A stretch of 64,000 nucleotides of DNA from contig NZ_JAHOPH010000002.1 in the NCBI RefSeq assembly GCF_019798055.1, forward strand, positions 124,001 through 188,000, read 5' to 3'. Made by a program: the position numbers and the translations under genes. Position 1 is the stretch's first letter. Each line of letters opens with the position of its first letter. The notes under the pieces were generated by a model. It saw nothing but the letters and a program-made list of their open reading frames with translations. It was not told where the DNA came from and did no database searches. Source of the DNA: Salsipaludibacter albus. Lineage in GTDB: Bacteria > Actinomycetota > Nitriliruptoria > Nitriliruptorales > Nitriliruptoraceae. Shown here piece after piece: positions 4,255 through 47,143 of this stretch.

Positions 4255-4324
4255 GGTTGGAGCCTCGGGTGGTGTGAGCCCGTGTCGGGCCACCTCAACG
4301 CCCGGGGGTCCGGTCATCGACGTG

Positions 4325-15077: not shown

Positions 15078-15144
15078 AACGCCTCCCCGCGGGCCGGTGG
15101 CAGATCCGGTCGCGCGGCCCCCGCGCTCGTCTGGAAGGAACATC

Positions 15145-25073: not shown

Positions 25074-26459
25074 TCACGACTCGTGGGAGATCGGCGCCAG
25101 CTCGATCGGGACCTGCTCGCGGCAGCGCTCGAAGCGCTCGCGGACCTGCTCCGGGTCGTCGCCACCGAGGAACAGGTCGGCCATCCGGTAACTGTAGGAG
25201 TCCTGCATCGGCAGGTCCGACAGTGCCATCCCGGGCTCGACGTGGACGTGCAGGCGCAGTTCCGGGAACTGTTCCTGCACGCGGGAGAGTTCGTCCGGGG
25301 TGGGCGAATGGACGACCCGGGCGTCGCCACCGTGGTGGCGCAGCATGAACTTGCTGGCGAAGGGGAACTCGCCCTCGCCGGACGGGAAGTCGGGGTCCTG
25401 ACCCAGGGCGAGGCGGACGGCGACCTGGTGGTGGGACGCCCCGTCGACGAGCAGGAACAGGGGCGAGTGGGACTTCGAGATCCGCGGGTTGACCTCGAGC
25501 ACGTGCAACGCGTCGGTGTCGGGGTCGTGGAAGAACTCGATGTTGAAGGGCGCGCGGTCGTAGCCCAGCGCCGCCATGGTGCGGTCGGCGATCGCGTGCA
25601 TCCTGCGGGTCGTGGCCTCGTCCAGGGCGGACGGGTAGCCGTACTCGACGAGCGAGGAACCGTGGGCGCCGGCACGACCGGTGTCGATCGTGCCGTAGAT
25701 CGTCGTGGTCCCGCGCCACCGGTACCCCTCCAGTGTGCACTGTCGCGGGGCGGAGATGACGGCCTCCGCGAGGCAGTGGTGGCCGCCGACGTCCGCCACC
25801 TCGGCCGGCAGGTCCGCGTGCTCGAGCACCACGTCGAACGGTCGCGCGACCTCGTGGATCCCGTCTCGCAGCCGCTCGACGGCGTCGGCGAAGTCGCGGT
25901 CGTCGGCGACGTGGAACCCGAGGTACGACGAGTGCGACTTGATCGGCTTCACCCAGAACGGGTAGTCCAGGTCGACCTGGTCACGGGCGTCGTGGTCGAA
26001 CGGGTCGAAGACGGTGAAGTCGGGGACGTGCTCCGGGACCACCCGGGCCTGTTCCAGCCTGCTCCAGTACTTGTGCTCGCACTTCAGCACGGCCTCCAGG
26101 GAGGGCCCGGGGAGGTCGCAGTGATCGCGCAGGATCGGCAGGATGGTGCTGGTCGGGAAGTCCCAGTGCCCGATGATGCCGTCCACCGGCTCGTCGAACC
26201 GGTCGAGCACGTCGTGGGCGCGATCGAGTAGTCCGGCCATGGGCCCACCGGTCCAGTTCGCGATCTCGTCGGCGTCGAACAGGGCGTGGAACGCGATCTC
26301 GTCGGCGCCGCGCATGGTCGCCAGCAGGTCGCGATGGAAGCCGTCGAGCCCGACGACGAAGACGTTGCGGGGACGCTCGGGCAACTCCGGGGACGCCCGA
26401 CGTCCTCGACCGGGCGGGGGGTCTGGCCACGGGCGGGTCGATGACGGGCCCACGGCCAT
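25074..26459 (-). CDS. ATP-grasp domain protein
   Basis: A 461-residue ATP-grasp ligase-like protein. FWVKPIKSHSSYLGFHV supplies the ATP-binding Lys. The metal and ATP residues lie in APFNIEFFHDPDTDALHVLEVNPRI (Glu, Glu-x-Asn-Pro-Arg); this string is quoted with the functional residues in its two halves. The N-terminal NVFVVGLDGFHRDLLATM is a Rossmann-like preATP domain. Such enzymes join a carboxylate to an amine or thiol using ATP. The ATG at 26459 shares one base with the stop of the upstream RsbW-like gene (TGATG). Substrate is unknown. Pairing with a CocE-type hydrolase could mean making and hydrolysing the same amide or ester. Confidence 0.82.
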   Translation of the reverse strand: MAVGPSSTRPWPDPPPGRGRRASPELPERPRNVFVVGLDGFHRDLLATMRGADEIAFHALFDADEIANWTGGPMAGLLDRAHDVLDRFDEPVDGIIGHWDFPTSTILPILRDHCDLPGPSLEAVLKCEHKYWSRLEQARVVPEHVPDFTVFDPFDHDARDQVDLDYPFWVKPIKSHSSYLGFHVADDRDFADAVERLRDGIHEVARPFDVVLEHADLPAEVADVGGHHCLAEAVISAPRQCTLEGYRWRGTTTIYGTIDTGRAGAHGSSLVEYGYPSALDEATTRRMHAIADRTMAALGYDRAPFNIEFFHDPDTDALHVLEVNPRISKSHSPLFLLVDGASHHQVAVRLALGQDPDFPSGEGEFPFASKFMLRHHGGDARVVHSPTPDELSRVQEQFPELRLHVHVEPGMALSDLPMQDSYSYRMADLFLGGDDPEQVRERFERCREQVPIELAPISHES

Positions 26460-26905
26460 CAGGCGGGCTGACTCGACAGGACGAGCTGGGCCGTGACCGT
26501 GCGGGCGGTCTGGGTCACGGCCCAGTCCTGGGCCACGGCCGACACCACCGTGTCGGCGACGTCGGACACGCGGGAGGCGTCCGAGGACCCGTCGTGGGCC
26601 ACCGAGACCTCGATGTTCACCTGCGAGGGGTCCCGTCGCACCTGCACCCCGAGGCGCGCGCCGTCGGCCGCGTGGTCGACCAGCACGCCGGTCAACTCCT
26701 CCACGACCAGCCGGAGGTCGTGGAGGCGGGCGGCGTCGTCGATCGTCGGGGTCGCGGCCGCCGCACACCGGGTCCCGACGACCTCGGGCGCTGCCCTGTC
26801 TGCGGGGACGTGCAGGTGCAGCACCTCGCCCGACCCCCCGGTCCACCCCACCTCGGACTGCTGGTGTGCCACGGAGATGTCGGGTTGCGGGTGTCCCACG
26901 GACAT
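26459..26905 (-). CDS. unknown protein, possible degenerate RsbW-like (GHKL) domain
   Basis: A 148-residue soluble protein. The segment AARLHDLRLVVEELTGVLVD followed by LGVQVRRDPSQVNIEVSVAH, then WAVTQTARTVTAQLVL, has the order and spacing of an anti-sigma-kinase ATPase domain. It lacks the N-box Asn and the glycine-rich lid. It resembles the C-terminal half of the protein at 16026-16616. The ATG at 26905 follows an excellent GGGAGGA. A GTTT...GGGTAT promoter lies 33 bp upstream. It begins an operon with the ATP-grasp and CocE-like genes. A regulatory binding role is plausible; catalysis is unlikely. Confidence 0.55.
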   Translation of the reverse strand: MSVGHPQPDISVAHQQSEVGWTGGSGEVLHLHVPADRAAPEVVGTRCAAAATPTIDDAARLHDLRLVVEELTGVLVDHAADGARLGVQVRRDPSQVNIEVSVAHDGSSDASRVSDVADTVVSAVAQDWAVTQTARTVTAQLVLSSQPA

Positions 26906-26937
26906 TCGTCCTCCCACGACGGCGGCTCCGCACGGGG

Positions 26938-26963
26938 ATACCCCGTCCCGCCGGCGCACAAAC
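26938..26963 (-). promoter_or_regulatory. SigB/SigF-type promoter, GTTT-N16-GGGTAT
   Basis: Minus strand: GTTT 26963-26960, 16-base spacer, GGGTAT 26943-26938. It serves the RsbW-like/ATP-grasp/CocE operon and is divergent from the formate dehydrogenase promoter. Confidence 0.7.
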
Positions 26964-26995
26964 GTGGCGGGAGGATGTCTGGCCCGGAGGAGGAT

Positions 26996-27021
26996 GTTTG
27001 GCCACGGAACGGAGTGGGAAG
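26996..27021 (+). promoter_or_regulatory. SigB/SigF-type promoter, GTTT-N16-GGGAAG
   Basis: GTTT 26996-26999, 16-base spacer, GGGAAG 27016-27021. It lies 38 bp before the chosen GTG of the formate dehydrogenase gene and argues against any start further upstream. Confidence 0.65.
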
Positions 27022-27058
27022 GTCCACGGGGGTCGCTGAAGTCGCCACAGGAGTCGTC

Positions 27059-30000
27059 GTGCCCGCGTCGCCGTTCCGGCCGTTGTCCGAGGATGCTGCC
27101 GCACCCGAACAGGAGCCGGTGGCCGTCAGGGTGGACGGCCACACGCTGTACCTGCCGATGGGCCAGCCACTCGCGACCGCCCTGGCCGCCACCGACCACG
27201 CCGTGCCCGCCGTGTGCCTCGAGCCGTCCCTCGGGCCGATCGAGACGTGTGACACGTGCCTGGTGGAGCGCGACGGCCGCCTCGAGCGCAGCTGTGCCGT
27301 CCCGGTCGAGGCGGGCCTGGAGGTGCAGGTCGACACGGCGCGGGCCCGGGCCGCGCGCGAGGAGGCCGGCCAGCGGCTGATCCGCACCCACGAGCTGTAC
27401 TGCACGATCTGCGACAACAACAACGGGGACTGCGTGCTCAAGCACGGCGTCGAGGGCGCCGGGGTCCGCCGGCAGCGCGACGAGTACGAAGCGACGCCGT
27501 ACGCCGTGGACGACAGCAACCCCTTCTACCAGTACGACCCGGACCAGTGCATCCTGTGTGGCCGGTGCGTGGAGGCCTGCCAGAACGTCCAGGTGACCGA
27601 GACCCTGTCGATCGACTGGGAGGCCGACGAGCCCCGCGTGCTGTGGGACGGCGGCGCCCCGATCGGCGAGTCGTCGTGCGTGTCGTGCGGCCACTGCGTG
27701 ACGGTGTGCCCGTGCAACGCGCTGATGGAGAAGAGCATGGTCGGCCGGGCCGGGCTGTTCACCGGGCTCCCGCAGTCGTTCCGCGAACCCGCCATCGACC
27801 TGGTCAAGGCGGCCGAGTCCGAGACGGGGCTGCTGCCGCTGTTCGAGCTGTCCCGGGCGGAGGCGTCCGCCCGCATGGCCGACACGGAGGTCACCAAGAC
27901 CGTGTGCACCTACTGCGGCGTCGGGTGCTCCTTCGACGTCTACACCCGTGGCCGGGAGATCCTCAAGGTCGAGCCACGTGAGGAGGGGCCCGCCAACGCC
28001 ATCTCCACCTGCGTCAAGGGGAAGTTCGGGTGGGACTTCGTCAACGCCGACGACCGGTTGACGACCCCGCTCATCCGGGACGGCGAGCGGTTCCGCGAGG
28101 CGTCGTGGGAGGAGGCGCTGGACCTGGTGGCGCGTCGGCTCGGCGAGATCGTCGACCAGCACGGCCCGGACGCGACCGCGGTGATCGGGTCGTCCAAGGC
28201 CACCAACGAGGAGTCCTACCTCGCGCAGAAGCTCGCCCGCCAGGTGCTGGGCACGCACAACGTCGACAACTGCTCCCGCTACTGCCAGGCCCCGGCGACC
28301 ATGGGGCTGTGGCGCACCGTCGGCTACGGCGGCGACTCCGGCTCGATCAGTGACATGGAACGGGCCACGCTGGTCATGACGGTGGGCAGCAACACCTCTG
28401 ACAGCCATCCGGTCATCGCGGCTCGCCTGCGCCGGGCGCAGAAGCGCAACGGCCAGACGTTGGTCGTGGCCGACCTGCGCGAGCACGAGCTCGCCCAGCG
28501 GGCCGACGTGTTCCTGCGCCCCGAGCCCGGCACCGACCTCGTGTGGCTGTCGGCCATGGCCCGCGTGATCCTGGACGAGGACCTCGCCGACGACACCTTC
28601 CTGGCCGAGCGGGTCGACGGGCTGGACGACTACCGCGCCTCGCTCGAGCCGTTCACCCCCGAGTACGCCGAGCGACGCACCGGCATCGACGCCGACACCA
28701 TCCGCTCCACCGCCCGGCTGTTCGCGGCGGCCGAGCGCGCCTGCATCCTGTGGGCGATGGGCGTCACCCAGCACCACATGGGGTCGGACACCTCGACCGC
28801 GATGGCCAACCTCCTCCTGCTGACCGGCAACTTCGGACGCCCCGGCACCGGCGCCTACCCGCTGCGCGGGCACAACAACGTCCAGGGCTGCAGCGACTTC
28901 GGCAGCATCAACAGCTTCTACCCCGGCTACCAGGACGTCGACGACGAGCAGGTCGCGGCGAAGTTCGCCGATGCGTGGGATCGCGACGACCTGGCGCGGC
29001 AGAAGGGGCTGGACAACCACGGCATGGTCGAGGCGATCCACGACGGCGACCTGCACGCGCTCTACGTCATCGGCGAGGAGATCGCGCTGGTCGACGCCAA
29101 CGCGCACTACGTGCAGGAGGCGCTGGAGAAGGTCGACTTCCTGGTCGTCCACGAGCTGTTCTTCTCGACCACGGCCGAGTACGCCGACGTCGTGCTGCCC
29201 GCCGCCGCGTCCCTGGAGAAGGACGGGACGTTCACCAACACCGAGCGGCGGATCCAGCGGCTGTACGAGGTGATGCCCCCCGTCGGCGACGCCCGGCCGG
29301 ACTGGTTGATCCTGACCGAACTCGCCGACCGGATGGGCCGCCACTGGGGCTACACCCACCCGTCGCAGGTGATGGACGAGATTGCCGAGCTGACCCCGAT
29401 GTTCGCGGGGGTCTCCTACGACCGCCTCACCGGCTACGACTCCCTGCAGTGGCCGGTCGACGCCGACGGGACCGACCAGCCGTTGCTGTACACCGACGCC
29501 TTCACCCTGGACGGGACCGACCGGGCCCGCCTGTACCCGCTGGACTTCCGTGAGCCGTCCGACCAGCCCGACGACCAGCACGCCCTGCACTGCAACAACG
29601 GTCGGGTCCTCGAGCACTTCCACGAGGGCAACCTGACGATGCGCTCGGCCGGGCTGGCCGACCGCGTGCCCGACACCTACGTCGAGATGAGCCGGCGCAC
29701 CGCGGAGGACCACGGTGGCCTCAGGTCCGGCGACTGGGTGACCCTGTCCAACGAGCGCGGCGAGATCACCACCCGCGTGCTGCTGTCGGAACAGGTGGCC
29801 GACGGCCAGCTGTACGTGCCGGTGACGTCGAACGATGCCCGGGTCAACGACATGACGTCCAACGTGGTCGACCCGGACTCGCAGACGCCTGCCTACAAGG
29901 AGCTGGCGGTGGCGATCCGCCGCGCCGACCACGAGGTCTCACATCCCGCCCCTGGCCGGCACGGGGCCGACCGTGAGCGCCGGGGTGGCCCGCCCGAGGA

Positions 30001-30118
30001 CCCCACCGGCAGCCCGCTGCCGCGTGGCCACCATCGCTACGGCAGTCCCACCCCGCAGGACGGCGTGGAGGTCCGGCGCAAGTGGGCACGCGACGACTAC
30101 ACGTTCCCCGGACGCTGA
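27059..30118 (+). CDS. fdhF: molybdopterin formate dehydrogenase, alpha subunit
   Basis: A 1019-residue molybdenum/tungsten oxidoreductase of the formate dehydrogenase alpha family. Domains in order: a [2Fe-2S] ferredoxin-like N-terminus (CDTCLVE), a NuoG-type Cys motif (HELYCTICDNNNGDCVLKHG), two [4Fe-4S] clusters (CILCGRCVEACQ and CVSCGHCVTVCPCN), the cofactor-proximal cluster CTYCGVGCSFDVY, bis-MGD domains and a molydopterin-binding C-terminal domain (CNNGRVLEHFHEGN). The metal ligand is Cys409 in NCSRYCQAPAT. Usual formate dehydrogenases have Cys-His here, but this one has Cys-Gln. The GTG at 27059 follows CAGGAG. A DUF1641 gene follows. Formate oxidation is the family expectation; the Gln leaves some doubt. 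Confidence 0.88.
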   Translation: MPASPFRPLSEDAAAPEQEPVAVRVDGHTLYLPMGQPLATALAATDHAVPAVCLEPSLGPIETCDTCLVERDGRLERSCAVPVEAGLEVQVDTARARAAREEAGQRLIRTHELYCTICDNNNGDCVLKHGVEGAGVRRQRDEYEATPYAVDDSNPFYQYDPDQCILCGRCVEACQNVQVTETLSIDWEADEPRVLWDGGAPIGESSCVSCGHCVTVCPCNALMEKSMVGRAGLFTGLPQSFREPAIDLVKAAESETGLLPLFELSRAEASARMADTEVTKTVCTYCGVGCSFDVYTRGREILKVEPREEGPANAISTCVKGKFGWDFVNADDRLTTPLIRDGERFREASWEEALDLVARRLGEIVDQHGPDATAVIGSSKATNEESYLAQKLARQVLGTHNVDNCSRYCQAPATMGLWRTVGYGGDSGSISDMERATLVMTVGSNTSDSHPVIAARLRRAQKRNGQTLVVADLREHELAQRADVFLRPEPGTDLVWLSAMARVILDEDLADDTFLAERVDGLDDYRASLEPFTPEYAERRTGIDADTIRSTARLFAAAERACILWAMGVTQHHMGSDTSTAMANLLLLTGNFGRPGTGAYPLRGHNNVQGCSDFGSINSFYPGYQDVDDEQVAAKFADAWDRDDLARQKGLDNHGMVEAIHDGDLHALYVIGEEIALVDANAHYVQEALEKVDFLVVHELFFSTTAEYADVVLPAAASLEKDGTFTNTERRIQRLYEVMPPVGDARPDWLILTELADRMGRHWGYTHPSQVMDEIAELTPMFAGVSYDRLTGYDSLQWPVDADGTDQPLLYTDAFTLDGTDRARLYPLDFREPSDQPDDQHALHCNNGRVLEHFHEGNLTMRSAGLADRVPDTYVEMSRRTAEDHGGLRSGDWVTLSNERGEITTRVLLSEQVADGQLYVPVTSNDARVNDMTSNVVDPDSQTPAYKELAVAIRRADHEVSHPAPGRHGADRERRGGPPEDPTGSPLPRGHHRYGSPTPQDGVEVRRKWARDDYTFPGR

Positions 30119-30545: not shown

Positions 30546-30686
30546 AGGTCGGTCGAGCGGCGACCCGTCGAACGGCGGTGGCCTTCGGGACGTGGGACAC
30601 GGGGTCGTTCCGGGGGTGTCGCGGCAGCGCTCAGCCGACTTTACTGGTGGGTGCAGTCCGTCCGCCGACTTCGCCTGGAGACGATC

Positions 30687-32075
30687 GTGCCCGATGAGAG
30701 GTCCACGGTCGCACGCGGGGGAGGGACGTCACCGCCGCACGACGACGAGGACTGCGCGGACGTCCGGGAGTGGGTCGTCGGCCGCCTGGGCCACCTCGTC
30801 CGCACGCCGCTGAGCATCGCGGCGGCGACGACGCAACTCCTGGACAGCACTGACGACCTGGGTGACGTGGACCGCGAACTGGTCCGAGGCCTGGCCGATG
30901 CGATCGTCGACCTTCGCGACGGGGTCCTGCAGCTGGTCGAGGCCTCTCGATGGCCGGCCGGACCCGCCAGCGAGCCCGTGGCCGTCGACGACGTCGTCGA
31001 GGCAGCGGTGCGCCGGATCGAGGCCGACGCGCGGGATCACCACGACGTCCGGGTCCTGGCGGAGGTGGCGACCGGTGCCGGGGTGCTGATCCACCGAGAG
31101 GTGTTGGAGTGGGCGCTGGCCACACTCGTCCGCCAGGCAGCTCGTCGGGCCGCCCCGGGCGCGCTTGTCCGCCTCGTCGGGCAGTCGACTCCTCGAGGCC
31201 ACGTGGAACTCCGGGTCGTTGCGGGAGCGCTCCGCGAGGACGATGGCCAGGCGCCATCGTCGCCGTGGGTCGACGACCCCACGGCCGAGGTGGCGTCAGA
31301 GCTGCTGGTCAGGAGTGGGGCAGACGTCCGCCAGGTCGTCGCGGGGAAGGAGGCCCCCGCGGTGGAGATCGTCCTCCCGACCGCCCAGGGCGAGATCCCC
31401 CCGCCGGCGGAACGGCCCGCCTCGGTGGTCGACGGTGTCGCGTCGGTCCCCGACCCGGTGGGTCCGGAGTACGGCCTGCTCGTCCTGGTGGTCGAGGACG
31501 ACGATGCCCTGCGCCGCTTCCTCGAGGACACGCTGTCGTCGGAATGGCGCGTGGTGGCCGTGGGCAGCGCCGAGCAGGCGCTCGAGGCCGTTCGCGAGCA
31601 GCGTCCCGACCTGGTCATCTGTGACATCATGCTGCCGGGGGTGAACGGCGAGGCGCTGGTGCACGCCCTGCAGGAACTCGACGGCGTCGATCGGATCCCC
31701 CTGATCGTGCTGACCGGGCGCACCGACGAGCAACTCCGGGTCCGCCTGCTCCAGGATGGCGCCGACGACTACCTGACCAAGCCCTTCGCGCTGGGTGAAC
31801 TCCAGACCCGGATGGCCAACCTGGCCGCCAGTCACGTCGACCTCGATGACCTGCGCACCAAGGCCGAGGAAGCGCAGACGCTCGCCCAGCAACTGCAGAA
31901 CGCACTCACCAGCAGGATCATCATCGAGCAGGCCAAGGCCTACATCGCCTCCGAGCATGGCATTGACGTCGAGGAGGCCTTCGACTTGTTGCGGCGCCAC
32001 GCCCGGGACAACCAGGCGAAGCTCCACGACGTCGCGCACGCGATCGTGGAGTCCCGCCAGCCACCTTCGGCGTGA
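30687..32075 (+). CDS. histidine pseudokinase-REC-ANTAR fusion regulator
   Basis: A 462-residue regulator. Residues ~20-95 look like a HisKA dimerisation helix pair with RLGHLVRTPLSI (His36). The following ATPase-like region (about 100-230) lacks the N-box Asn and the G-boxes, so it should not bind ATP. A normal receiver domain spans ~265-385, with VVEDDDALRRFL, the phospho-acceptor Asp313 in VICDIMLPG, and Lys in YLTKPF. The C-terminus (about 395-455) is an ANTAR RNA-binding domain with IIIEQAKAYIASEHGI. The GTG at 30687 has GGAG upstream; the GTG at 30651 is an alternative without one. It precedes a CheB-CheR-kinase gene and could be a phosphorylation target of it. Confidence 0.82.
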   Translation: MPDERSTVARGGGTSPPHDDEDCADVREWVVGRLGHLVRTPLSIAAATTQLLDSTDDLGDVDRELVRGLADAIVDLRDGVLQLVEASRWPAGPASEPVAVDDVVEAAVRRIEADARDHHDVRVLAEVATGAGVLIHREVLEWALATLVRQAARRAAPGALVRLVGQSTPRGHVELRVVAGALREDDGQAPSSPWVDDPTAEVASELLVRSGADVRQVVAGKEAPAVEIVLPTAQGEIPPPAERPASVVDGVASVPDPVGPEYGLLVLVVEDDDALRRFLEDTLSSEWRVVAVGSAEQALEAVREQRPDLVICDIMLPGVNGEALVHALQELDGVDRIPLIVLTGRTDEQLRVRLLQDGADDYLTKPFALGELQTRMANLAASHVDLDDLRTKAEEAQTLAQQLQNALTSRIIIEQAKAYIASEHGIDVEEAFDLLRRHARDNQAKLHDVAHAIVESRQPPSA

Positions 32076-32153
32076 GGGCTGGGGCGGGCGTGGCCTATCG
32101 TGGGCCCCGGGCCCCGGCAACGGGGCGGTCCAGCCGAGTGGGAGGGCCTGGTC

Positions 32154-35100
32154 GTGGTCGATGACACCGTCGCCCCCGACGCGGAGGCCTCGGCCGGTGG
32201 ACCCGACGGACATGGCGATGACGCACCCCCCGAGCCCGTCACCATCGTGGGGATCGGCGCCTCCGCCGGTGGCCTGGCCGCGCTCCGGTCGTTCTTCGAA
32301 CGAGTCGACGCCGACAGCGGTGTCGCGTGGGTGGTCGTGGTGCACCTGTCGCCCGAACACGAGAGCCGCCTCGCCGAACTGCTCCAGCCCCACGCACCCG
32401 TGCCCTTCGAGCAGGTCTCGGCCACCACGCGGCTGGAGCCCGACCACGCCTACGTCATCCCGCCCAACGCCAACCTCAACAGCATCGACACACACCTGCG
32501 CCTCAGCGAGCTCGAGGAGCAGCGGGCGGAGCGCGCCCCCATCGACCACTTCTTCCGCACCCTGGCGCGCACCCACGACGGGGACGCCATCGGCGTGATC
32601 CTGACCGGGACGGGCTCCGACGGGACACTGGGCCTGCGGGACATCCGGGAGCAGGGTGGCCTGACGATCGTCCAGGATCCGGCCGGGGCCGAATACGGGG
32701 GGATGCCCCAGTCCGCCATCGCCGCGGCGACGGTCGACCTCGTCCTCGAACTGGACGAGATCCCGGGTCGCATCCTCGAGTTCGTACGGACCAGGCCCCG
32801 ACTGCCCGTGCCCCCGGCCGATGCCGAAGACGTCCTCGACTCCCGGGCCGAACACGACCTGCACCGCATCCTCGCGCAGGTTCGTACGGTGACCGACCGG
32901 GACTTCACCCGGTACAGGACGAGCACGATCCTGCGCCGCATCAGGCGCCGCATGCAGATGCGCCGCGCGGACGTGCTGGCCGACTACGTGTCGCTGCTGG
33001 GCGACGAGCCGCACGAGGTGCGCGCGCTGGCCGAGGACCTGCTGGTCACGGTGACGAGCTTCTTCCGCGACGAGACGGTGTTCCGGGTCCTGGAGGACGA
33101 CGCCGTCCCGGGACTGTTCGTCGACAAGGGGCCGGGCGACACTGTGCGTGCCTGGAGCGTCGGGTGCGCGACCGGTGAGGAGGCCTATTCGCTGGCGATC
33201 CTGCTGCTGGAGGCCGCCGGCCGGCTCGAGGCGCCCCCACGGGTCCAGGTGTTCGCCACCGACCTCCACGAGGCCTCGCTCGCGACCGCCCGTGCCGGCT
33301 TCTATCCGGGGAACATCGCCGGCGACACGGGGTCGGGCCGCCTCGCACGGTACTTCGACAAGGAGGACGGGGGGTATCGGATCCGCAAGGCCGTCCGGGA
33401 CGTCGTCGTGTTCTCGCCACACGACCTGCTGACGGACCCCCCGTTCTCGCGGCTGGACCTGGTGTCCTGTCGCAACCTCCTGATCTACCTCGAACGAGGC
33501 ATCCAGCACGACGTCCTCGACCTGTTCCACTACGCCCTCAACCAGGACGGTGTGTTGGTCCTGGGCACCTCCGAGACAATCGAGTCCCAAGAGTTGTTCA
33601 CGACCCTGGACGGGGACTCACGGGTCTACCGTCGACGGGACAGCCCGGCGCCCGAGCCGCGGCTCCCGGTGTTCCCGTTGCTCCCCGGATACGTGCCCGG
33701 CCTCCCCGTCGAAGGCCGCGAGGCTCGCACCTCGCCACCGATCGCGCCGGGTGCGCTCCACCAGCGCGTCGTCGAGCGACATGCGCCACCCAGCCTGCTG
33801 GTGGCCGCTGACGACCGGATCGTGCACCTCTCCGAACGTGCCGGTCGCTACCTGCTGCATCCCGGCGGGAGCCCGACCTCCAACGTGGTGAACCTGGTCC
33901 GCCCCGAGTTGCGCGCCGAATTGCGGTCAGCCCTGCATGATGCTCGTCGCGACACCACGCCTGTCCAGACGCCAGCTCGCCTCGTGGCGTTCAACGGTGA
34001 TTCCGGCTGGGTGCGGCTGGACGTCCGGGCCGCGGTCGAACCGGGGCTGGAAGGTTTCGTGCTGGTGCTGTTCATGGACGTGCCCGGTGCTGACGAGCCG
34101 ACCACCGGCACCACACGCAACGACGGCGAGGACGCCGAGCTGCAGTTGTTGCGCTCCGAGGTCGAGGTCAGCAAGCGGCGGCTGCAGTCCCTGGTCGAGC
34201 AGTACGAGACCAGCCAGCAGGAACTGCGAGCGTCCAACGAGGAGCTGCAGTCGTCCAACGAGGAACTGCGCTCCACCCTCGAGGAGCTGGAGACCGGGCG
34301 TGAGGAGTTGCAGAGCGTCAACGAGGAGTTGCAGACGGTCAACGAGGAGAATCGGCACAAGGTCGAAGAGCTGTCCCAGTTGTCCAGCGACCTGAAGAAC
34401 CTGTTCAGGGCCACCGACATCGCCACCCTGTTCCTGGACCGCAGACTGCGCATCCTCCGGTACACCCCGCGCGTGGCCGACCTGTTCAGCGTCCGGCCCG
34501 CCGACCGGGGCCGGCCGGTGACGGATCTCGCGCACCAACTCGACTATCCGGACCTGAGCGCCGACGCCGAGGCGGTCCTTGGCAGCCTGGTCCCCGTCGA
34601 GCGCGAGATCCCCGACGTCTCCGGTCGCTGGTACCTGACAAGGGTCTCGCCCTACCGCAGCAACGACGACCGGATCGAGGGCGTGGTCGTGACCTTCGTG
34701 GACATCAGTGGCCGAAGGCAGGCGGAGCAGGACCTGCTGGATGCGAAGGCCGACACGGACGCCGTCGCCGAGACCCTCCGCCAGAGCGAGAAGCGCTACC
34801 GGACGCTGTTCGAGACGATGGACGAGGGGTTCTGCGTGCTCGAGGTGGTCGTCGACGACGAGCAGTTCGTCGACCATCGGTTCATCGAGACCAACCCGGC
34901 ATTCGAGGAACAGACCGGGTTCCGGGACGCCGTCGGGTCCAGCCGGGCCGACCTCGACCCGCAGGACGGGCAGGAGTGGCTGGAGCGGTGCTGCCGGGTC
35001 GCGGTGACCCGCCAGCCCGTGCGCTTCGAGGGCAGGGCCGGCCGGTTCCCGGAGCGCTGGTTCGACATCTACGCCTTCCCCACGGCCGAGCACGAGGACC

Positions 35101-35873
35101 TCCGGGTCGCCGTGTTGCTGCGTGACGTGACCGACCGGCGCCGGGCCGAGGAGGACCTGCGTCGACTGACGGAGGAGCTCGAGCGGCGTGTCGCGACCCG
35201 CACCCGGCAGGCACAACTGCTGTCCGAGTCCTTGTCCTCGGCCGAGCAGCAGGAACGCACGCGACTGTCGGGACTGCTGCACGACGACCTCCAGCAACTC
35301 CTGTACGGCATCCAGATGCAGATCACCGTGGCCCGGCAGCAGGCTGCCAGCGGCGATGTCGACGAGACGGCGGTGGAACAGGCGTTGGCGTACCTCGACG
35401 AGGCCATCACGTTGACCCGCCAGCTGACGGTGGACCTCGACCCGCCGGTCCTTCGCGGTGACAGCCTGGTCGACGCCCTCCAGTGGCTCCAGACGCACAT
35501 GCGGGACCTCCACGGCCTCGAGGTCGAGGTCCGTGACGAGCTCGAGGAGGCCGACATCGGTCCCGATGGCGCCGAGGCGGACCGGATGCGCCGGCTGGTG
35601 TTCCAGGTCGTGCGCGAGTTGCTGTTCAACGTGGCGAAGCACGCCCAGGTCGACAGCGCCGTCGTCACCGCCGAGCGCGTCGACGACGAGGTCCAGGTCA
35701 CCGTTGCCGACCACGGGTTGGGTTTCGATCCTGCCAGGCTCGACACCGAGGACGAGGCAGGTTCCGGTCTCCACAGCGCCCGGGAACGGCTCCGCCTGCA
35801 CGGGGGCGAACTGCAACTGCAGGCGGCACCAGGGGAGGGCGTGACGGCAGTGATCAGGCTTCCGGCAGGGTGA
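32154..35873 (+). CDS. CheB-CheR-PAS-histidine kinase fusion
   Basis: A 1239-residue cytoplasmic signalling protein. A CheB methylesterase domain (about 25-215) keeps its triad in GIGASAGGLAAL (Ser), VVVHLSPEHES (His) and LTGTGSDGTLG (Asp). A CheR methyltransferase domain (about 235-495) has SFFRDETVF, WSVGCATGEEAYSLAIL and FSRLDLVSCRNLLIYL. A coiled coil (about 670-745) contains repeated SNEELQSSNEEL. PAS domains span ~750-860 and ~880-1000. The C-terminus is a HisKA_3 kinase with LSGLLHDDLQQLLYG (His1043) and a HATPase with ADHGLGFDP. No chemoreceptor gene is nearby, so methyl-group chemistry here may act in sensing. The likely partner is the convergent receiver gene, which overlaps it by 20 bp. 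The start GTG follows GGGAGGG. Confidence 0.9.
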   Translation: MVDDTVAPDAEASAGGPDGHGDDAPPEPVTIVGIGASAGGLAALRSFFERVDADSGVAWVVVVHLSPEHESRLAELLQPHAPVPFEQVSATTRLEPDHAYVIPPNANLNSIDTHLRLSELEEQRAERAPIDHFFRTLARTHDGDAIGVILTGTGSDGTLGLRDIREQGGLTIVQDPAGAEYGGMPQSAIAAATVDLVLELDEIPGRILEFVRTRPRLPVPPADAEDVLDSRAEHDLHRILAQVRTVTDRDFTRYRTSTILRRIRRRMQMRRADVLADYVSLLGDEPHEVRALAEDLLVTVTSFFRDETVFRVLEDDAVPGLFVDKGPGDTVRAWSVGCATGEEAYSLAILLLEAAGRLEAPPRVQVFATDLHEASLATARAGFYPGNIAGDTGSGRLARYFDKEDGGYRIRKAVRDVVVFSPHDLLTDPPFSRLDLVSCRNLLIYLERGIQHDVLDLFHYALNQDGVLVLGTSETIESQELFTTLDGDSRVYRRRDSPAPEPRLPVFPLLPGYVPGLPVEGREARTSPPIAPGALHQRVVERHAPPSLLVAADDRIVHLSERAGRYLLHPGGSPTSNVVNLVRPELRAELRSALHDARRDTTPVQTPARLVAFNGDSGWVRLDVRAAVEPGLEGFVLVLFMDVPGADEPTTGTTRNDGEDAELQLLRSEVEVSKRRLQSLVEQYETSQQELRASNEELQSSNEELRSTLEELETGREELQSVNEELQTVNEENRHKVEELSQLSSDLKNLFRATDIATLFLDRRLRILRYTPRVADLFSVRPADRGRPVTDLAHQLDYPDLSADAEAVLGSLVPVEREIPDVSGRWYLTRVSPYRSNDDRIEGVVVTFVDISGRRQAEQDLLDAKADTDAVAETLRQSEKRYRTLFETMDEGFCVLEVVVDDEQFVDHRFIETNPAFEEQTGFRDAVGSSRADLDPQDGQEWLERCCRVAVTRQPVRFEGRAGRFPERWFDIYAFPTAEHEDLRVAVLLRDVTDRRRAEEDLRRLTEELERRVATRTRQAQLLSESLSSAEQQERTRLSGLLHDDLQQLLYGIQMQITVARQQAASGDVDETAVEQALAYLDEAITLTRQLTVDLDPPVLRGDSLVDALQWLQTHMRDLHGLEVEVRDELEEADIGPDGAEADRMRRLVFQVVRELLFNVAKHAQVDSAVVTAERVDDEVQVTVADHGLGFDPARLDTEDEAGSGLHSARERLRLHGGELQLQAAPGEGVTAVIRLPAG

Positions 35874-41409: not shown

Positions 41410-42195
41410 TCAATGCCGGCGTTCGCTCCAGACCTGCGCCGCGTGCGTGAACGTGATCAGGAACAGCCCCCCGACCAGGTTGCCGAGGGCCGCCAGGCCA
41501 ACGTTGATTCCCAGCGCGCCGTAGCCAACGGCGCCGCCCAGCCAAATTCCGAACAGCAGGTGGAGGGCGGACACGATGACGTGGTCGAAGGGGCCGAGTG
41601 CCAGGAAGCTCCCGACCATGAACGCCACGAGGATCCGCGACGCGACGCTGTTGCTCGCCGCGAGCAGGTAGGACAACAGGGTGATCAAGGCCCCCGCGAG
41701 CACCGCCCGGGCCAGGGTGGCCGCCCAGGCCCTGGTGCCGATCTTCTCCGCGATCCGGATCAGCACGTCGGACGGGCCGTGCGGCAGGGCACCGTCCACG
41801 GTCATGACGGCAAGCAGCACGCTGCCACCGACCAGATTGAACACCAGCGTCGTGGACCACAACAGCCCCAACCGCGACGGGCTCCGTTCGCTGTCAGGCT
41901 CCATGGCCGCGGCCACGGGGTCGAAGAAGTTCTCGGTGAACAACTCGGTTCGCCCCACGATGAGGAACACCAGGCCGATCGCGAATGCCACCGCACCCGC
42001 CACGGCACCGACACCCTCGCCCAGTTCCGGAGCGATCAGGCTCTCGACCACGCCCAGGGCGACGATCCCGAACACGATCGTCACGCCGGCGATGAACGCG
42101 GTGGTGACCTGCTCGATGACGGGCATGTCCAGACGCCGGCGCCCCTCGGCGACCGCACGCTGATAGACCTCGTCGGGGCTCGGTGCAACAGCCAT
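41410..42195 (-). CDS. formate/nitrite transporter (FNT) family channel
   Basis: A 261-residue FNT-family membrane protein with about six helices. Family markers are VFGIVALGVVESLI, IGLVFLIVGRTELFTENFFD, ASRILVAFMVGSFLALGPFDHV and NLVGGLFLITFTHAAQVW. FTEN and the GPFDHV/HAA region are typical of YfdC-like members, a subgroup whose cargo is not settled. A formate dehydrogenase is encoded 12 kb away, but no operon link exists. The ATG at 42195 follows GAGGGTGGG; an in-frame GTG a few codons upstream is possible. Confidence 0.85.
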   Translation of the reverse strand: MAVAPSPDEVYQRAVAEGRRRLDMPVIEQVTTAFIAGVTIVFGIVALGVVESLIAPELGEGVGAVAGAVAFAIGLVFLIVGRTELFTENFFDPVAAAMEPDSERSPSRLGLLWSTTLVFNLVGGSVLLAVMTVDGALPHGPSDVLIRIAEKIGTRAWAATLARAVLAGALITLLSYLLAASNSVASRILVAFMVGSFLALGPFDHVIVSALHLLFGIWLGGAVGYGALGINVGLAALGNLVGGLFLITFTHAAQVWSERRH

Positions 42196-42387
42196 CGGAC
42201 CCACCCTCGGAACGACAACACCTGCCTCATTCGGGGAAAAGGCTACCTCCATGACCGTCGGGGATCGGGTCTGTGGGGGGTGGCCGTCCGTGATCCACGC
42301 GGACGGGGCCTCGTGATCCGGGGCGCCCAGACCTCCTGGGTGGGCGGCTGGCGTGCTGCGGCGGGTCGTCGAGGCGCCATGGGGGTC

Positions 42388-42442
42388 TTGACAGGCAATG
42401 CCGCGTCGGAGATCCTTGACGGGCTTCCTCCCAGACCCCGGG
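42388..42442 (+). promoter_or_regulatory. TTGACA-type promoter plus the same 18-base leader element as the sigma gene
   Basis: TTGACA 42388-42393, then the TTCCTCCCAGACC element at 42425-42442, exactly 37 bp from one start to the other as at 15023-15077. It lies in the only gene-free stretch above 300 bp (42196-42526), between the FNT gene and the small-ORF operon. Nothing else was recognised in that stretch. The leader's CCTCCC could pair with the GGGAGG of the downstream ribosome site. Confidence 0.5.
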
Positions 42443-42526
42443 GAATGCCCTCCCGGACCCCGAGGTGCACGCGACCGGCCATGGCAGGCCGAGCCGGTCG
42501 AGTCGTCGCGATCGGGAGGAGCACCA

Positions 42527-42622
42527 ATGGATCGGCAGCAGGGACCGACCCCCACGTGCCCGGTGTCGCCTGGCCATGCCCAGGCAGATGATCTGGCACG
42601 CGGCGCGGAGGAGATGCCATGA
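42527..42622 (+). CDS. 31-codon leader-like small ORF, translationally coupled
   Basis: A short frame, MDRQQGPTPTCPVSPGHAQA and then DDLARGAEEMP. It has a very good ribosome site (GGGAGGA, 42514-42520) and its stop overlaps the ATG of the next gene (ATGA, 42619-42622). The peptide has one Cys and one His and no membrane segment. It could be a real small protein or a leader peptide whose translation controls the gene behind it. It sits downstream of the shared leader element. Confidence 0.5.
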   Translation: MDRQQGPTPTCPVSPGHAQADDLARGAEEMP

Positions 42623-43056
42623 GCATCCTCCCCGGCCTGAGGCAGGCGCTGGTCGAATGGATGCTGGTCCGTCGGGATCGTCCGGCCATGCACGTCGCTG
42701 TCCCATGGCCGGCCTACGACGGCGATGCCGAGTCGTCGGCCGTCGAGTGCTGGTCGGTCGGCGAGGTGTTGTACGCCCTGTGGGACGACCCGCAGCCGGC
42801 ACCGGACAGCGTCACCGCACTGTTGAAGCTGCCGGCAGGCGTCACGATCGGGCAGGTCGCACGACTGCTGTACGCCGTACGGGCGGACCGTCCCTCGTCC
42901 ACCTACGGCGAGGTCGTCGAACGGCTCGCCCGCCTGCCCCGGTCCCAGGTCGCACGGCTGCTCGACGGGGTGGTCGACACCTTCCACGACCGGTGCCAGG
43001 CCACGACGGTCAGCACCCGGACCACGGATTCCACGAACGTCGCGCTCCGGCGATGA
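42619..43056 (+). CDS. unknown soluble protein, middle gene of a three-gene operon
   Basis: A 145-residue protein, family not recognised. It is mainly helical. SVGEVLYALWDDPQPAPDSV and GVTIGQVARLLYAVRADRPS, then STYGEVVERLARLPRSQVAR, may be short tandem helical units. The C-terminus (about 130-145) is polar. There is no signal peptide. Start and stop both overlap neighbours by four bases (ATGA), so the three products are probably made in step. Candidate roles are regulatory or scaffold; nothing in the sequence shows catalysis. Confidence 0.7.
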   Translation: MSILPGLRQALVEWMLVRRDRPAMHVAVPWPAYDGDAESSAVECWSVGEVLYALWDDPQPAPDSVTALLKLPAGVTIGQVARLLYAVRADRPSSTYGEVVERLARLPRSQVARLLDGVVDTFHDRCQATTVSTRTTDSTNVALRR

Positions 43057-43343
43057 GCGACCCCGACCGCTGCACGGTGGCCCTGGCGGTGGCCGAGGCC
43101 CTGTCGTTGGTGTATCGCGAGGTCGATCCCGACGTGGCCCTCGCACGTGTGCGTGACTTCATCGGTGACGAGCCCGAGGTGTTGGCAGCCGCCCGCGACA
43201 GCTGCATCGACCACGACGGCGTCGACCGCCAGGTCGTCGCACGAGCCACCGACCTGCTGGCCACGGCGGCGATGCTTGCCCGTGGCCACGCCGTCACCAC
43301 GGTGTCGCCGACCGACGCGACGAACCCCGACCCGAACCCCTGA
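43053..43343 (+). CDS. unknown small protein, last gene of a three-gene operon
   Basis: A 96-residue, acidic, helical protein with ALSLVYREVDPDVALARVRD and VDRQVVARATDLLATAAMLA. No family is recognised and there is no membrane segment. The ATG at 43053 overlaps the upstream stop. The tail is Thr/Asp/Pro-rich and probably disordered. It ends 26 bp before a SigB-type promoter that serves the next gene. Confidence 0.68.
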   Translation: MSDPDRCTVALAVAEALSLVYREVDPDVALARVRDFIGDEPEVLAAARDSCIDHDGVDRQVVARATDLLATAAMLARGHAVTTVSPTDATNPDPNP

Positions 43344-43428: not shown

Positions 43429-43947
43429 GTGGACGTCCCGCCCCATGATCGGCGCGAGCGCCAGTCCGATCCGCGCGGCCGCCGTCACCGACTGACGGCG
43501 CTCGTGGATGATCGGGATGCCGCACGTGAACTGGTGGAACGGCTGTCCCTCGCCGGCATCGACGGCAGCGACATCCTGGTCGACGACCCGGGCCGTGCGC
43601 AGCCACCCTCCCGGGAGCGGGACCGCAGGACCGACGCCCGTGTCATGGCGCGACTGGCCCGACGTGGGGCCGTGGGGGCGTTCGTCGGCCTGGTTGCGGC
43701 CGTGCTCCTGCTCCTGCTCCTGGCCGGGATCGGTGCGAGCGTGTCCTGGTGGTGGGTGACGGGTGGGCTCGGACTGGGTGCGGCCGTGGGACTCGTCTCC
43801 ACCCCGGTCATGGCCCCCGCCTGGGAGGCCGCGAACACGCCGGGCCCGGGCGTCCGGCGCGTGGTGGTCGACGACCTCGATGACCGGTCACTGCAACGGG
43901 TGCGCACGGTCATCGGGGACCTGCCGCGAGAACTCACCGTGGACTGA
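43429..43947 (+). CDS. general-stress-type membrane protein (GSP17M/DUF1269-like)
   Basis: A 172-residue protein. The N-terminal part, LTALVDDRDAARELVERLSL and AGIDGSDILVDD, resembles the ferredoxin-like fold of general stress protein 17M. Two adjacent membrane helices follow (about residues 84-106 and 110-128), then a C-terminal repeat of the same fold (VRRVVVDDLDDRSLQRVRTV). The start is a GTG at 43429 after GGAGG. It has one of the best GTTT...GGGTAT promoters in the window, consistent with a stress-induced gene. Function is unknown. Confidence 0.75.
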   Translation: MDVPPHDRRERQSDPRGRRHRLTALVDDRDAARELVERLSLAGIDGSDILVDDPGRAQPPSRERDRRTDARVMARLARRGAVGAFVGLVAAVLLLLLLAGIGASVSWWWVTGGLGLGAAVGLVSTPVMAPAWEAANTPGPGVRRVVVDDLDDRSLQRVRTVIGDLPRELTVD

Positions 43948-44006
43948 CGACGGTCGCGTGTCGCACGGGCGACGGTTCCTGCACAGGATCCGACGGTGGG
44001 CCGGGG

Positions 44007-44032
44007 GTTTGGCTCCCGCGGGATGCGGGTAT
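44007..44032 (+). promoter_or_regulatory. SigB/SigF-type promoter, GTTT-N16-GGGTAT
   Basis: GTTT 44007-44010, 16-base spacer, GGGTAT 44027-44032. It lies 66 bp before the qcrC GTG, so it may drive the cytochrome bc1 operon. Confidence 0.68.
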
Positions 44033-44098
44033 CCCCCGACGCGTCGCCTGCCGGACGGCGGTCGGTGCGTGCCCGAGACGCGATGCGAGGATCGACCA

Positions 44099-44938
44099 GT
44101 GCGGCAGCCCCACATCCGCGATCGTGGCGGGCGGTGGGCGCGGGCACTGGTGTGCTGGGTGCTCTTCGCCGCGACCGTCGTGGGGGCGTGGGGGATGCTG
44201 GGTCGTCCGGCCGGCGCGCGCCAGGAGGCCGGCACCTCGGCGCGGGCCGGCGAGTTCCTGTGGCAGCGGGACTGTGCGAGTTGCCACGGGGTCGCTGGAC
44301 AGGGGACACGGTGGGCACCGGACCTCACCGGCCAGGGCGCTGCCGGCGTGTCCCTGGCGATCACCAGTGGACGCATGCCCCTGCCGGCCGACGCCGTCGG
44401 CCGTGACGACCCCCCGGCGCGCGAGCGACAGGTCCCCCGTGGCCCGGTCGTGTACACGCCGGAGGAGGTCGATGCCCTGGTGGCGCACGCCGGCCGGATC
44501 CTGTCTGGCCCCGAGGTGCCGCACGTCGACCTCTCGACCGCCGACCGCTCGGCAGGGGCCAGCCTGTTCCAACTGAACTGTGCCGCCTGCCACACCTGGT
44601 CGGGCCGGGGCGGTGCGCTCACCAGTGGCCAGGTGGCGGTCTCGTTGGTCGATGCCACCCCCGTCGAGGTGGTCGAGGCGATGCGGACGGGACCGGGCAC
44701 GATGCCGGTGTTCGACGAGGCGACGCTGGACGAGCGCCAGGCCACGGACGTCACCGCGTACGTCGAGTACCTCGATCGGCCCAGGACTCCCCTCGGCCAC
44801 CCCCTGTGGTTCATCGGGCCGGTCGCGGAAGGGATGGTCGCGTGGGTCGTGGGCCTGGTGGCACTGCTGCTGCTGGTCCGGTGGATCGGGGCGCGCACCC
44901 CAGCCCCGGGCTCTGGATCGGAGGACCACCGTGGCTGA
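44099..44938 (+). CDS. qcrC: cytochrome bc1 complex diheme cytochrome c subunit
   Basis: A 279-residue membrane-anchored diheme cytochrome c. There is an N-terminal membrane/signal helix (about residues 15-35). Two heme-binding motifs, CASCH (about residue 60) and CAACH (about 161), each begin a cytochrome c domain; the distal Met ligands are likely in GRMPL and GTMPV. A C-terminal anchor lies at about 243-264. In actinobacteria this subunit passes electrons from bc1 towards the oxidase. The start is a GTG at 44099 with GAGGA upstream. It overlaps the Rieske gene by eight bases. Confidence 0.92.
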   Translation: MRQPHIRDRGGRWARALVCWVLFAATVVGAWGMLGRPAGARQEAGTSARAGEFLWQRDCASCHGVAGQGTRWAPDLTGQGAAGVSLAITSGRMPLPADAVGRDDPPARERQVPRGPVVYTPEEVDALVAHAGRILSGPEVPHVDLSTADRSAGASLFQLNCAACHTWSGRGGALTSGQVAVSLVDATPVEVVEAMRTGPGTMPVFDEATLDERQATDVTAYVEYLDRPRTPLGHPLWFIGPVAEGMVAWVVGLVALLLLVRWIGARTPAPGSGSEDHRG

Positions 44939-45803
44939 ATCCGGATCCGGAGACGGAGCGGCCGTGCGGAGGGTGCGGAGGACCGTGCTCGTGGCCTTCG
45001 CCGGCGCGACGCTCGGCGGGATCGGGTCCGTGGTGGCCTACGCGCTCGACCTCGGCCAACACTGGGTCGGGCTCGGGCTCGCCGTCGCATTCCTCGGGGT
45101 CGGCGGCGGACTCGTCGCCTGGGGGCACGGACTGATGCCCGGCGGGGGGGACGTCGAGGAGCGACCGCCGGTCGGGCCCCCCGCCGCCGACGAGCGTGCG
45201 GCGGGTGCGAGCCTGCGCGACCGAGGTGCCATGGTCGGCCGTCGAGGCTTGCTCGGTGGCGCCCTGGCGACCGCCCTGTCGGCCACCGGCCTTGCTGCGC
45301 TGGTCCCCACGCTGTCGCTGGGTCCCAGCCCCGGCGATGCCCTGCGCCACACGGCGTGGGCCGGTGCCGGGGCACAGCGGTTGGTCACCCGCGAGGGGCG
45401 GGCGGTGGCCGTCGACGAGCTCCAGGTGGGTGGCCTGCTGACGGTGTTCCCACGCGACCACGTCGGCGACGCCGACGCCCAGGCGGTACTGATCCGGCTC
45501 GCCGACGACGTGACCGTCCGGGCCCCGGCCGAGGTGTCCGCCACCGCCGCCGGTCACGTCGCCTACTCCAAGGTCTGCACGCATGCCGGCTGCCCCGTGG
45601 GGTTGTACGAGGCGATCGAGCAGCAACTGTTCTGCCCGTGCCACCAGTCGTCGTTCGACGTGGTCGAGGGTGCCCGTCCGCTGATGGGGCCGGCGGCCCG
45701 CCCGCTGCCCCAGCTGCCCCTGGGGGTCGACGACGAGGGCTTCCTGGTGGCCACCGGGGACTTCAGTGACGCCGTGGGGCCGGGATGGTGGTCACGGCCG
45801 TGA
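44931..45803 (+). CDS. qcrA: cytochrome bc1 complex Rieske iron-sulfur subunit
   Basis: A 290-residue Rieske protein. Three N-terminal hydrophobic helices (about 18-40, 44-64 and 103-126) match the actinobacterial QcrA type rather than the single-helix type. The cluster motifs are CTHAGCPVG and CPCHQSSFD, with GPAARPLPQLPL after them. It takes electrons from quinol at the outer face of the membrane and passes them to cytochrome c. The GTG at 44931 has GGAGGA upstream. It overlaps qcrC by eight bases and qcrB by 19 bases. Confidence 0.93.
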   Translation: MAESGSGDGAAVRRVRRTVLVAFAGATLGGIGSVVAYALDLGQHWVGLGLAVAFLGVGGGLVAWGHGLMPGGGDVEERPPVGPPAADERAAGASLRDRGAMVGRRGLLGGALATALSATGLAALVPTLSLGPSPGDALRHTAWAGAGAQRLVTREGRAVAVDELQVGGLLTVFPRDHVGDADAQAVLIRLADDVTVRAPAEVSATAAGHVAYSKVCTHAGCPVGLYEAIEQQLFCPCHQSSFDVVEGARPLMGPAARPLPQLPLGVDDEGFLVATGDFSDAVGPGWWSRP

Positions 45804-47143
45804 TCGCGCGACTGGCGAGCTGGCTCGACCAGCGCCTTGGTGCGGCGCGGGCGGCCGAGGCGGGTGCGGGCAAGGTGTTTCCCGAGCACTGGTCGTTCCT
45901 GCTCGGCGAGATCGCCTTCTACGCCTTCGTCGTGCTGGTGGCCAGCGGCACGTTCCTCGCGATGTTCTTCGACAGCTCGCTCGTCCCCATCACCTACGAG
46001 GGCTCGTACGCCCCCTTGCACGGCGCGGAGGTCACGCCCGCCTTCGCGTCGGTGCTCGACATCAGCTTCGACGTGCCGGCCGGCCTGCTCGTGCGCCAGG
46101 TCCACCACTGGGCGGCGCTGGTCTTCGTCGCCGCCATCGTGGTGCACCTCCTGCGGATCTTCTTCACCGGTGCCTTCCGCCGACCCCGCGAGGTCAACTG
46201 GCTGGTCGGCGTGACCCTGCTGGGCCTGGCGATCCTGGAAGGGTTCGCCGGCTACAGCCTCCCCGACGACCTCCTGTCCGGCACCGGACTGCGGGTCGGC
46301 TACAGCATCACCCAGTCGGTCCCCGTGGTCGGGGACCACCTCGCCTTCCTGGTGTGGGGGGGCGAGTACCCCGGCACCGAGATCGCCAGCCGCCTGTTCA
46401 TCGGCCACGTGTGGATCCTCCCGGCTGTCATGGGCGCGCTGATCGCCGGCCACCTGCTGCTGGTCGTCCGCCAGAAGCACACCCAGTTCCCGGGTCCGCG
46501 CCGGACCGAGGACAACGTGGTCGGCGAGCGCCTGTGGCCCACCTACCTGGCGAAGTCGGTCGGGCTGCTCTTCCTGGTCACGGGCGTGATGGTCCTCCTG
46601 GGAACCCTGTTCCAGGTCAACCCGGTGTGGTTGTACGGGCCGTACGACCCCGCGGCGGTCACGACCGGGGCGCAGCCGGACTGGTACATGGGCTGGCTCG
46701 AGGGGGCCCTCCGGCTGACCCCGTCGGTCGCGTTCCGGGGATTCGGCGTCGAGGTCCCCAACGTGTTCCTGCCCGGCGTCCTGCTGCCCGGGCTGACCTT
46801 CGCCGGCCTGTACGCCTACCCGTTCGTCGAGCAGTGGTGGACGGGCGCGGCCGACCGGGAGCACCACCTCCTCCAACGTCCCCGCGACCACCCGCACCGC
46901 ACGGCGTTCGGCGTTGCGGTCGTCACGTTCTACGTGTCCCTGTTCGTCGGCGGGTCCAACGACGTGCTCGTGGCCCAGACCGGCTGGGACATCGCGGTGG
47001 TCATCAACGTGATGCGCGCCATGGTGGTCGTGCTCCCGCTGGTCGCCTGGTGGGTGACGCGTCGCCTCTGTCGACAGTTGCAGGCCGATGACGTGCACGC
47101 CGGGCAGGTCGAGCGCATCCGTGAACGTGTCCCCGACGCGTGA
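45785..47143 (+). CDS. qcrB: cytochrome bc1 complex cytochrome b subunit
   Basis: A 452-residue cytochrome b with eight or more helices. The heme ligands lie in RQVHHWAALVFVAAIVVHLL and in HVWILPAVMGALIAGHLLL. The Qo-site motif is PDWY (in GAQPDWYMGWLEG), the actinobacterial version of PEWY. It oxidises menaquinol in the complex with QcrA and QcrC. The ATG at 45785 lies inside the end of qcrA, implying coupled translation. It is last in the operon; the gene after it converges, 63 bp away. Confidence 0.93.
   Translation: MVVTAVIARLASWLDQRLGAARAAEAGAGKVFPEHWSFLLGEIAFYAFVVLVASGTFLAMFFDSSLVPITYEGSYAPLHGAEVTPAFASVLDISFDVPAGLLVRQVHHWAALVFVAAIVVHLLRIFFTGAFRRPREVNWLVGVTLLGLAILEGFAGYSLPDDLLSGTGLRVGYSITQSVPVVGDHLAFLVWGGEYPGTEIASRLFIGHVWILPAVMGALIAGHLLLVVRQKHTQFPGPRRTEDNVVGERLWPTYLAKSVGLLFLVTGVMVLLGTLFQVNPVWLYGPYDPAAVTTGAQPDWYMGWLEGALRLTPSVAFRGFGVEVPNVFLPGVLLPGLTFAGLYAYPFVEQWWTGAADREHHLLQRPRDHPHRTAFGVAVVTFYVSLFVGGSNDVLVAQTGWDIAVVINVMRAMVVVLPLVAWWVTRRLCRQLQADDVHAGQVERIRERVPDA

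Follow-up and report, generated by a model that had tools for sequence, protein, structure and literature searches.

The locus considered here raises the question of why a sigma factor gene and an operon headed by an orphan gene carry the same promoter and leader element at matching spacing, and what kind of control this arrangement could provide. Both units lie in the window, i.e., the whole stretch of 64,000 nucleotides that was analysed (C12:124001-188000 of host genome G000; 4.25 Mb, 79 contigs). SigB/F-type sigma factors are usually discussed under anti-sigma partner switching; a leader common to a gene of this type and to other operons would constitute a post-transcriptional arm of sigma control. 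The promoters and genes concerned are:

15023-15028, + strand: TTGACA, -35 hexamer of the sigma-gene promoter (sequence, spacing table)
15047-15052, + strand: CATGTT, predicted -10 hexamer with an 18-bp spacer; predicted transcription start (+1), G at 15059
15145-15942, + strand: sigma factor gene, SigB/SigF/SigG family (TIGR02980, 8.4e-67, with a score just under the family cut-off; Pfam regions 2, 3 and 4)
42388-42393, + strand: TTGACA, -35 hexamer of the operon promoter (sequence, spacing table)
42411-42416, + strand: GATCCT, predicted -10 hexamer with a 17-bp spacer; predicted +1, G at 42423
42527-42622, + strand: predicted upstream ORF of 31 aa, its TGA overlapping the next ATG (ATGA)
42619-43056, + strand: orphan gene, 145 aa, heading the operon; with it the genome has three paralogues, each preceded by the leader
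43053-43343, + strand: second small gene of the operon, starting in an ATGA overlap

Promoter-leader module and its copies in the host genome

Upstream of both units, TTGACA (15023 and 42388) is followed at a 37-bp offset by TTCCTCCCAGACCCCGGG (15060 and 42425), where 18 shared bases begin that are exact in both window leaders. This pairing had been noted in the initial annotation, and its remark that the intervening DNA is unrelated also holds, in that everything beyond the -35 box, the offset and the element differs. The exact 13-mer of the element has two matches in the window, both in the module. TTGACA occurs three times on both strands of the window against 6.4 expected, and two of the three belong to the module. 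By chance, about 2e-4 pairs would be expected to agree at 26 such positions with a single fixed offset.

A search of the host genome, proposed earlier together with one of its relatives, recovered a third exact element copy on the minus strand of contig C10, again with TTGACA at 37 bp. A fourth, diverged copy was found on contig C11, where TTGACC lies 36 bp 5' of CTCCTTCTGGACCCC (promoter-element string TTGACC-N17-CATGAT, with CTCCTTCTGGACCCCGAGG at 36 bp). The offset is 37 bp in three leaders and 36 bp in C11, with unrelated DNA in between. Judged from promoter spacings, the predicted +1 is a G located 1 or 2 nt 5' of the element in 4/4 core leaders, in agreement with the earlier expectation that the element begins at or just after the transcription start. 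A hairpin at the 5' end of the RNA would explain the fixed offset.

The 16-base core CTCCCRGACCYCGRGG has seven exact matches in the genome, six of which fall inside these leaders; thus, the module is real and is no dispersed repeat lacking promoter association, which had been named as one of two findings that would overturn the proposal. The same count bears on the reading of the shared DNA as a recently copied promoter, or as chance, with no regulatory meaning. Although the module is found in this genome only, as this reading would have it, the common parts are restricted to the -35 box, the offset and the element, and the reading is already disfavoured and in our judgement extremely unlikely.

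The two further paralogues of the operon's leading gene are likewise preceded by the module. Those behind the C10 and C11 copies are 33% and 48% identical to this gene, and all three members of the orphan family in the genome (3/3) have the module. A shared promoter-leader module that would control the sigma gene and the operon is well supported. The orphan family carries the motif GE-[VL]-L-x-A-L-W-D-D. Its protein has no Pfam or NCBIfam match, its predicted structure (mean pLDDT 77) has no fold match in the PDB, and a profile detected it in none of 396 other genomes of the phylum. In the taxonomic family, two weak homologues were found, L015 (G008) and L014 (G019); that of G008, which belongs to another genus, lies directly behind an ANTAR gene and has no leader. 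The second gene of the operon has no family match above the curated cut-off.

In the window operon and in C11, the stop codon of a short upstream ORF overlaps the start of the orphan gene, and the Shine-Dalgarno (SD) sequence belongs to that ORF. The ATGA overlap suggests translational coupling of the upstream ORF and the orphan gene. The C10 leader has no ordinary start codon at normal spacing after its SD-like site; it contains a 29-aa GTG ORF with the same overlap, the GTG being 15 nt from that site.

Hairpins and complementarity to the Shine-Dalgarno sequence

The features of the two window leaders are:

15059-15080, + strand: hairpin 1 of the sigma leader, GUUCCU-CCCAGACCCC-GGGAAC, with the putative anti-SD as its 5' half (sequence, folding)
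15082-15093, + strand: degenerate second element CCTCCCCGCGGG of the sigma leader, weak and off the loop consensus (sequence)
15129-15141, + strand: GTCTGGAAGGAAC, SD of the sigma gene, complementary at 12 of 13 nt to the transcript 5' end (0/500 shuffles as good)
42425-42445, + strand: hairpin 1 of the operon leader, UUCCUC-CCAGACCCC-GGGGAA (sequence, covariation, folding)
42447-42468 (core 42449-42465), + strand: hairpin 2 of the operon leader, CCUC-CCGGACCCC-GAGG, its 5' half being the stronger anti-SD there
42514-42521, + strand: GGGAGGAG, SD of the upstream ORF and partner of both anti-SDs (shuffle test, folding)

Each copy of the element can fold into a hairpin whose stem spans 6 bp, or 4 bp in one or two cases, and whose 9-nt loop reads CYRGACCCC. 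The loop is conserved and the stem sequence is variable, with covarying outer pairs and common G-U pairs. Over eight hairpins, 43 of 48 cells are paired, seven of them by G-U; 9/500 shuffles reach the covariation score, which a shift of the partner by 1-3 columns lowers by at least half. Two of these eight hairpins were picked by a covariance model, so that the set is biased towards the model, and the six chosen before any model search gave weaker covariation (48/500 shuffles). The earlier statement that the ends of the element can pair fits the hairpin that each copy can form; the covariation, drawn from eight paralogous hairpins of one genome, is modest.

A second, weaker copy of the element lies 22-24 bp downstream in the operon, C10 and C11 leaders (3/4 core leaders). 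In the sigma leader, a degenerate second element is placed about 20 bp downstream; it misses the loop consensus and is too degenerate to be counted. On the most plausible reading, the element forms an RNA hairpin at the 5' terminus, in most cases with another of the same kind behind it. An alternative hairpin of 3-4 bp with the hexaloop AAYGCC can also be drawn between hairpins 1 and 2 (about 15075-15086 in the sigma leader and about 42439-42452 in the operon leader); its loop obeys the ANTAR loop rule (A1, G4), and it is absent in C10 and unstable in C11.

The initial annotation had pointed to CCTCCC as complementary to a Shine-Dalgarno sequence, and this complementarity proved to be specific, covering 12 of 13 nt in the sigma leader (GUUCCUCCCAGAC with GUCUGGAAGGAAC; 0/500 dinucleotide shuffles as good). 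In 4/4 core leaders, a search from leader nt 43 to the main start codon, with dinucleotide shuffles as controls, placed the best complement of hairpin 1 at an SD-like site, 70-90 nt from +1. Shuffles as good numbered 0 (sigma), 33 (operon), 4 (C10) and 4 (C11) out of 500 each. When the better of both hairpins was allowed, the counts were 25, 120, 9 and 2 out of 1000 each (Fisher combination over the four core leaders, p = 8e-5). Leaders, ORFs and hairpin register were chosen after seeing the sequences, and these counts therefore serve as guidance and should not be taken as strict probabilities. Moreover, CCTCC is complementary to any SD, which builds in part of the pairing. The diverged C11 leader carries a matching diverged SD-like site, for which the pairing energies are -19.4 kcal/mol with the C11 element and -6.8 to -7.0 kcal/mol with the other elements. 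The operon leader is individually weak with hairpin 1 (33/500) or either hairpin (120/1000); its stronger SD partner is hairpin 2, at -19.2 kcal/mol. On these counts, the leader segment is complementary to its own SD above chance, strongly in the sigma, C10 and C11 leaders and weakly in the operon leader.

In the predicted minimum-energy folds, three leaders have the SD paired to the element (mean P 0.84-0.98); in the operon leader, hairpin 2 is the partner of the SD and part of hairpin 1 stays formed. Transcripts of 30 nt from the sigma and C11 leaders are predicted to fold hairpin 1, and the full leader favours the anti-SD/SD pairing over hairpin 1 by 12.8, 12.3 and 6.9 kcal/mol in sigma, C10 and C11, respectively. 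Forcing hairpin 1 in the operon leader costs 0.8 kcal/mol, since hairpin 2 takes the SD there.

A proposed translational switch and competing explanations

The reading preferred here, to which we assign a probability of about 0.58, is that the 5' hairpin or hairpins and the anti-SD form a translational switch of mutually exclusive folds behind a shared promoter. A sigma-A-like promoter (TTGACA, a 17-18 bp spacer and a weak -10) would start transcription 1-2 nt 5' of the element, which would then form the first ~23 nt of the mRNA, at its extreme 5' end. The 5' arm and loop of the hairpin would serve as an anti-SD for the first ORF of the same transcript, i.e., the sigma gene or a short upstream ORF that is ATGA-coupled to the orphan gene. 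Formation of the hairpin would hide the anti-SD, and the two pairings would thus exclude each other. With the hairpins formed, the SD would be free and translation on; with the hairpin opened, the anti-SD would pair with the SD and translation would be blocked. In the sigma and C11 leaders, the short 5' transcript would form hairpin 1 first, and the full leader would prefer the anti-SD/SD pairing. A regulator that grips the paired hairpins would turn the regulon on, and the sigma gene, the operon and at least two related operons would probably be switched on and off together. Read from sequence, the leaders have in common the promoter, the position, the motif, complementarity to the SD (in most leaders) and an association with paralogues and ANTAR genes; start sites, switching, direction of control and regulator are what we infer. 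The module is compact enough for reporter testing.

The neighbourhood of the leaders and the pairing of the hairpins make dimeric ANTAR proteins the first candidate for the regulator. A tentative extension is that the leaders represent a new ANTAR type, in which a dimer would hold two 5'-terminal hairpins with 9-nt loops and free the SDs of the sigma gene and the orphan operons. If true, ANTAR signalling and the sigma control of general stress would be connected in translation. The shared leader would also provide a small, directly testable regulon for asking how ANTAR proteins act without terminators.

The initial annotation had left open whether the element acts as leader RNA or as a protein-binding site on DNA. 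As a DNA operator, a tandem, partly palindromic site from +1 to +45 would allow a repressor or activator to act on transcription, and the fixed offset would reflect geometry with RNA polymerase. Operators typically overlap the start site and keep an invariant offset; in addition, the arms form inverted repeats, and a gene for an FHA-LuxR regulator is present in the C10 operon. However, the central nine bases CYRGACCCC are asymmetric and strand-fixed, the changes in the stem retain G-U pairs, unlike those of a DNA palindrome, and a DNA site does not predict a leader-specific SD complement 70-90 nt downstream. The variation of the stem through G-U pairs and the leader-by-leader match of anti-SD and SD thus favour the RNA alternative, and an operator seems rather unlikely. 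Control by an RNA thermometer, or by a small or antisense RNA with no dedicated protein, would have heat or RNA open the anti-SD/SD pairing. This fits a minimum-energy state that hides the SD; a G-rich sRNA could use the C-rich loops as seeds, and control of the rpoS and rpoH type is already established for stress sigma factors. A conserved 9-nt loop nevertheless exceeds what SD pairing needs and the tandem duplication of the hairpin is unexpected for a thermometer, which leaves such control improbable.

A canonical ANTAR-target RNA acting by the known routes, antitermination or SD occlusion, would account for small hairpins in tandem, for ANTAR genes near 2/4 core leaders and one variant leader, and for the G008 homologue directly behind an ANTAR gene. 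The loops of canonical targets are six bases long, with A first and G fourth (PMC3369931, PMC8164766), whereas the loop here has nine bases with C first. A direct scan detected the canonical dual motif in 1/6 leaders, against a background of 16/1000 stretches, and we regard canonical action as doubtful, about on a par with control by temperature or sRNA.

Related systems, ANTAR genes and searches beyond the genome

ANTAR proteins are numerous in Actinobacteria and have few known targets. The ANTAR-target RNAs of EutV, NasR and AmiR resemble the present leaders in their tandem small 5'-leader hairpins and in the ANTAR genes nearby. Stem-loops in tandem at 22-24 nt occur in 3/4 core leaders, with a linker of about 1-4 nt that lies at the short limit of the ANTAR range (2-25 nt), and the 9-nt loops lack the A1/G4 hexaloop, being CYRGACCCC. 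Furthermore, the hairpins here are placed at +1 and carry the anti-SD, whereas ANTAR-target hairpins contain the SD or compete with a terminator. About 37% of actinobacterial ANTAR targets overlap the ribosome-binding site or start codon (PMC8164766).

Masking of an SD by leader sequence has precedents. The stress sigma factor gene rpoS has an SD masked by its upstream leader, a long leader opened by Hfq sRNAs. The masking is alike here, with the difference that the extreme 5' end acts as the mask and that other operons share it. In Escherichia coli, the leader of the general-stress gene iraD sequesters the SD and contains an upstream ORF of 27 aa that ends in an overlap with the start of the following gene, and iraD is controlled by CsrA at GGA sites (PMC5574718). 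An SD-masking leader with a coupled short upstream ORF is likewise predicted in the window operon and C11; the tandem hairpins, the loop sequence and a leader common to several genes differ from iraD. The 6C RNA of Actinobacteria is similar in its two C-rich stem-loops. It is, however, an sRNA, which owes its name to the six C typically present in each of the two stem-loops (PMC4046766), and a search of Rfam, 6C included, with the window and both leaders returned no match. The module belongs to no known family tested here.

The host genome has ten ANTAR genes. Such genes lie within 2.5 kb of 2/4 core leaders (p about 8e-4), or of 3/5 leaders when a C11 variant is counted (p about 1.6e-5). In C10, the gene next after the paralogue encodes the FHA-LuxR regulator, and two divergent ANTAR-domain genes are present, one of them confirmed as GAF-ANTAR. 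Just 5' of the C11 leader lies an ANTAR gene whose N-terminal half is GAF-like, and the weaker variant leader, also on C11, precedes a kinase-REC-ANTAR gene. This variant is a probable member of the module, and its leader has no special SD pairing (184/500 shuffles as good). By these counts the adjacency of leaders and ANTAR genes is unlikely to arise by chance; part of it may reflect linkage between the orphan gene and ANTAR genes, given the position of the G008 homologue. The window itself encodes two ANTAR proteins, one GAF-ANTAR and one response-regulator-ANTAR, at 3547-4317 (- strand) and 30651-32075 (+ strand), and a covariance-model scan of the window placed no leader at either gene. 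The response-regulator-ANTAR gene is followed by a CheB-CheR-PAS-kinase hybrid at 32100-35873.

The evidence base is one genome with four core leaders, and orthologous leaders were not found. The search of relatives proposed in the initial annotation came out empty, with no module in 66 genomes of the class or in a pattern scan of ~85,000 species. Of the matches that covariance model R2 gave outside the host over the 66 genomes, 29 were read, by sequence context and not by annotation. None of these 29 had a comparable promoter and nearly all were coding-like, on which grounds they were rejected as true elements and taken as chance. The exact pattern gave five unrelated matches among the ~85,000 species, about the number expected by chance, and no plasmid match was found. 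Among 35 sampled genomes of the family, the closest match to the sigma gene was a 43% homologue in G046, in whose upstream DNA no element was seen by eye; this does not amount to the absence upstream of orthologous sigma genes that had been named as the second overturning finding. Within the host genome, a well-paired hairpin with the same loop and a compensated pair lies before an aquaporin-like gene (G000:C17:15007-15029; L027, L091); it was set aside for its poor promoter and missing SD partner, and is either chance or a stray member.

The operon promoter is divergent from a formate/nitrite transporter gene (41413-42240, - strand). Downstream of the operon, on the same strand, genes at 43763-47143 encode a cytochrome c with two haem domains, a Rieske QcrA-like protein and an actinobacterial QcrB, and a formate-dehydrogenase-like molybdopterin protein is encoded at 26441-30118.
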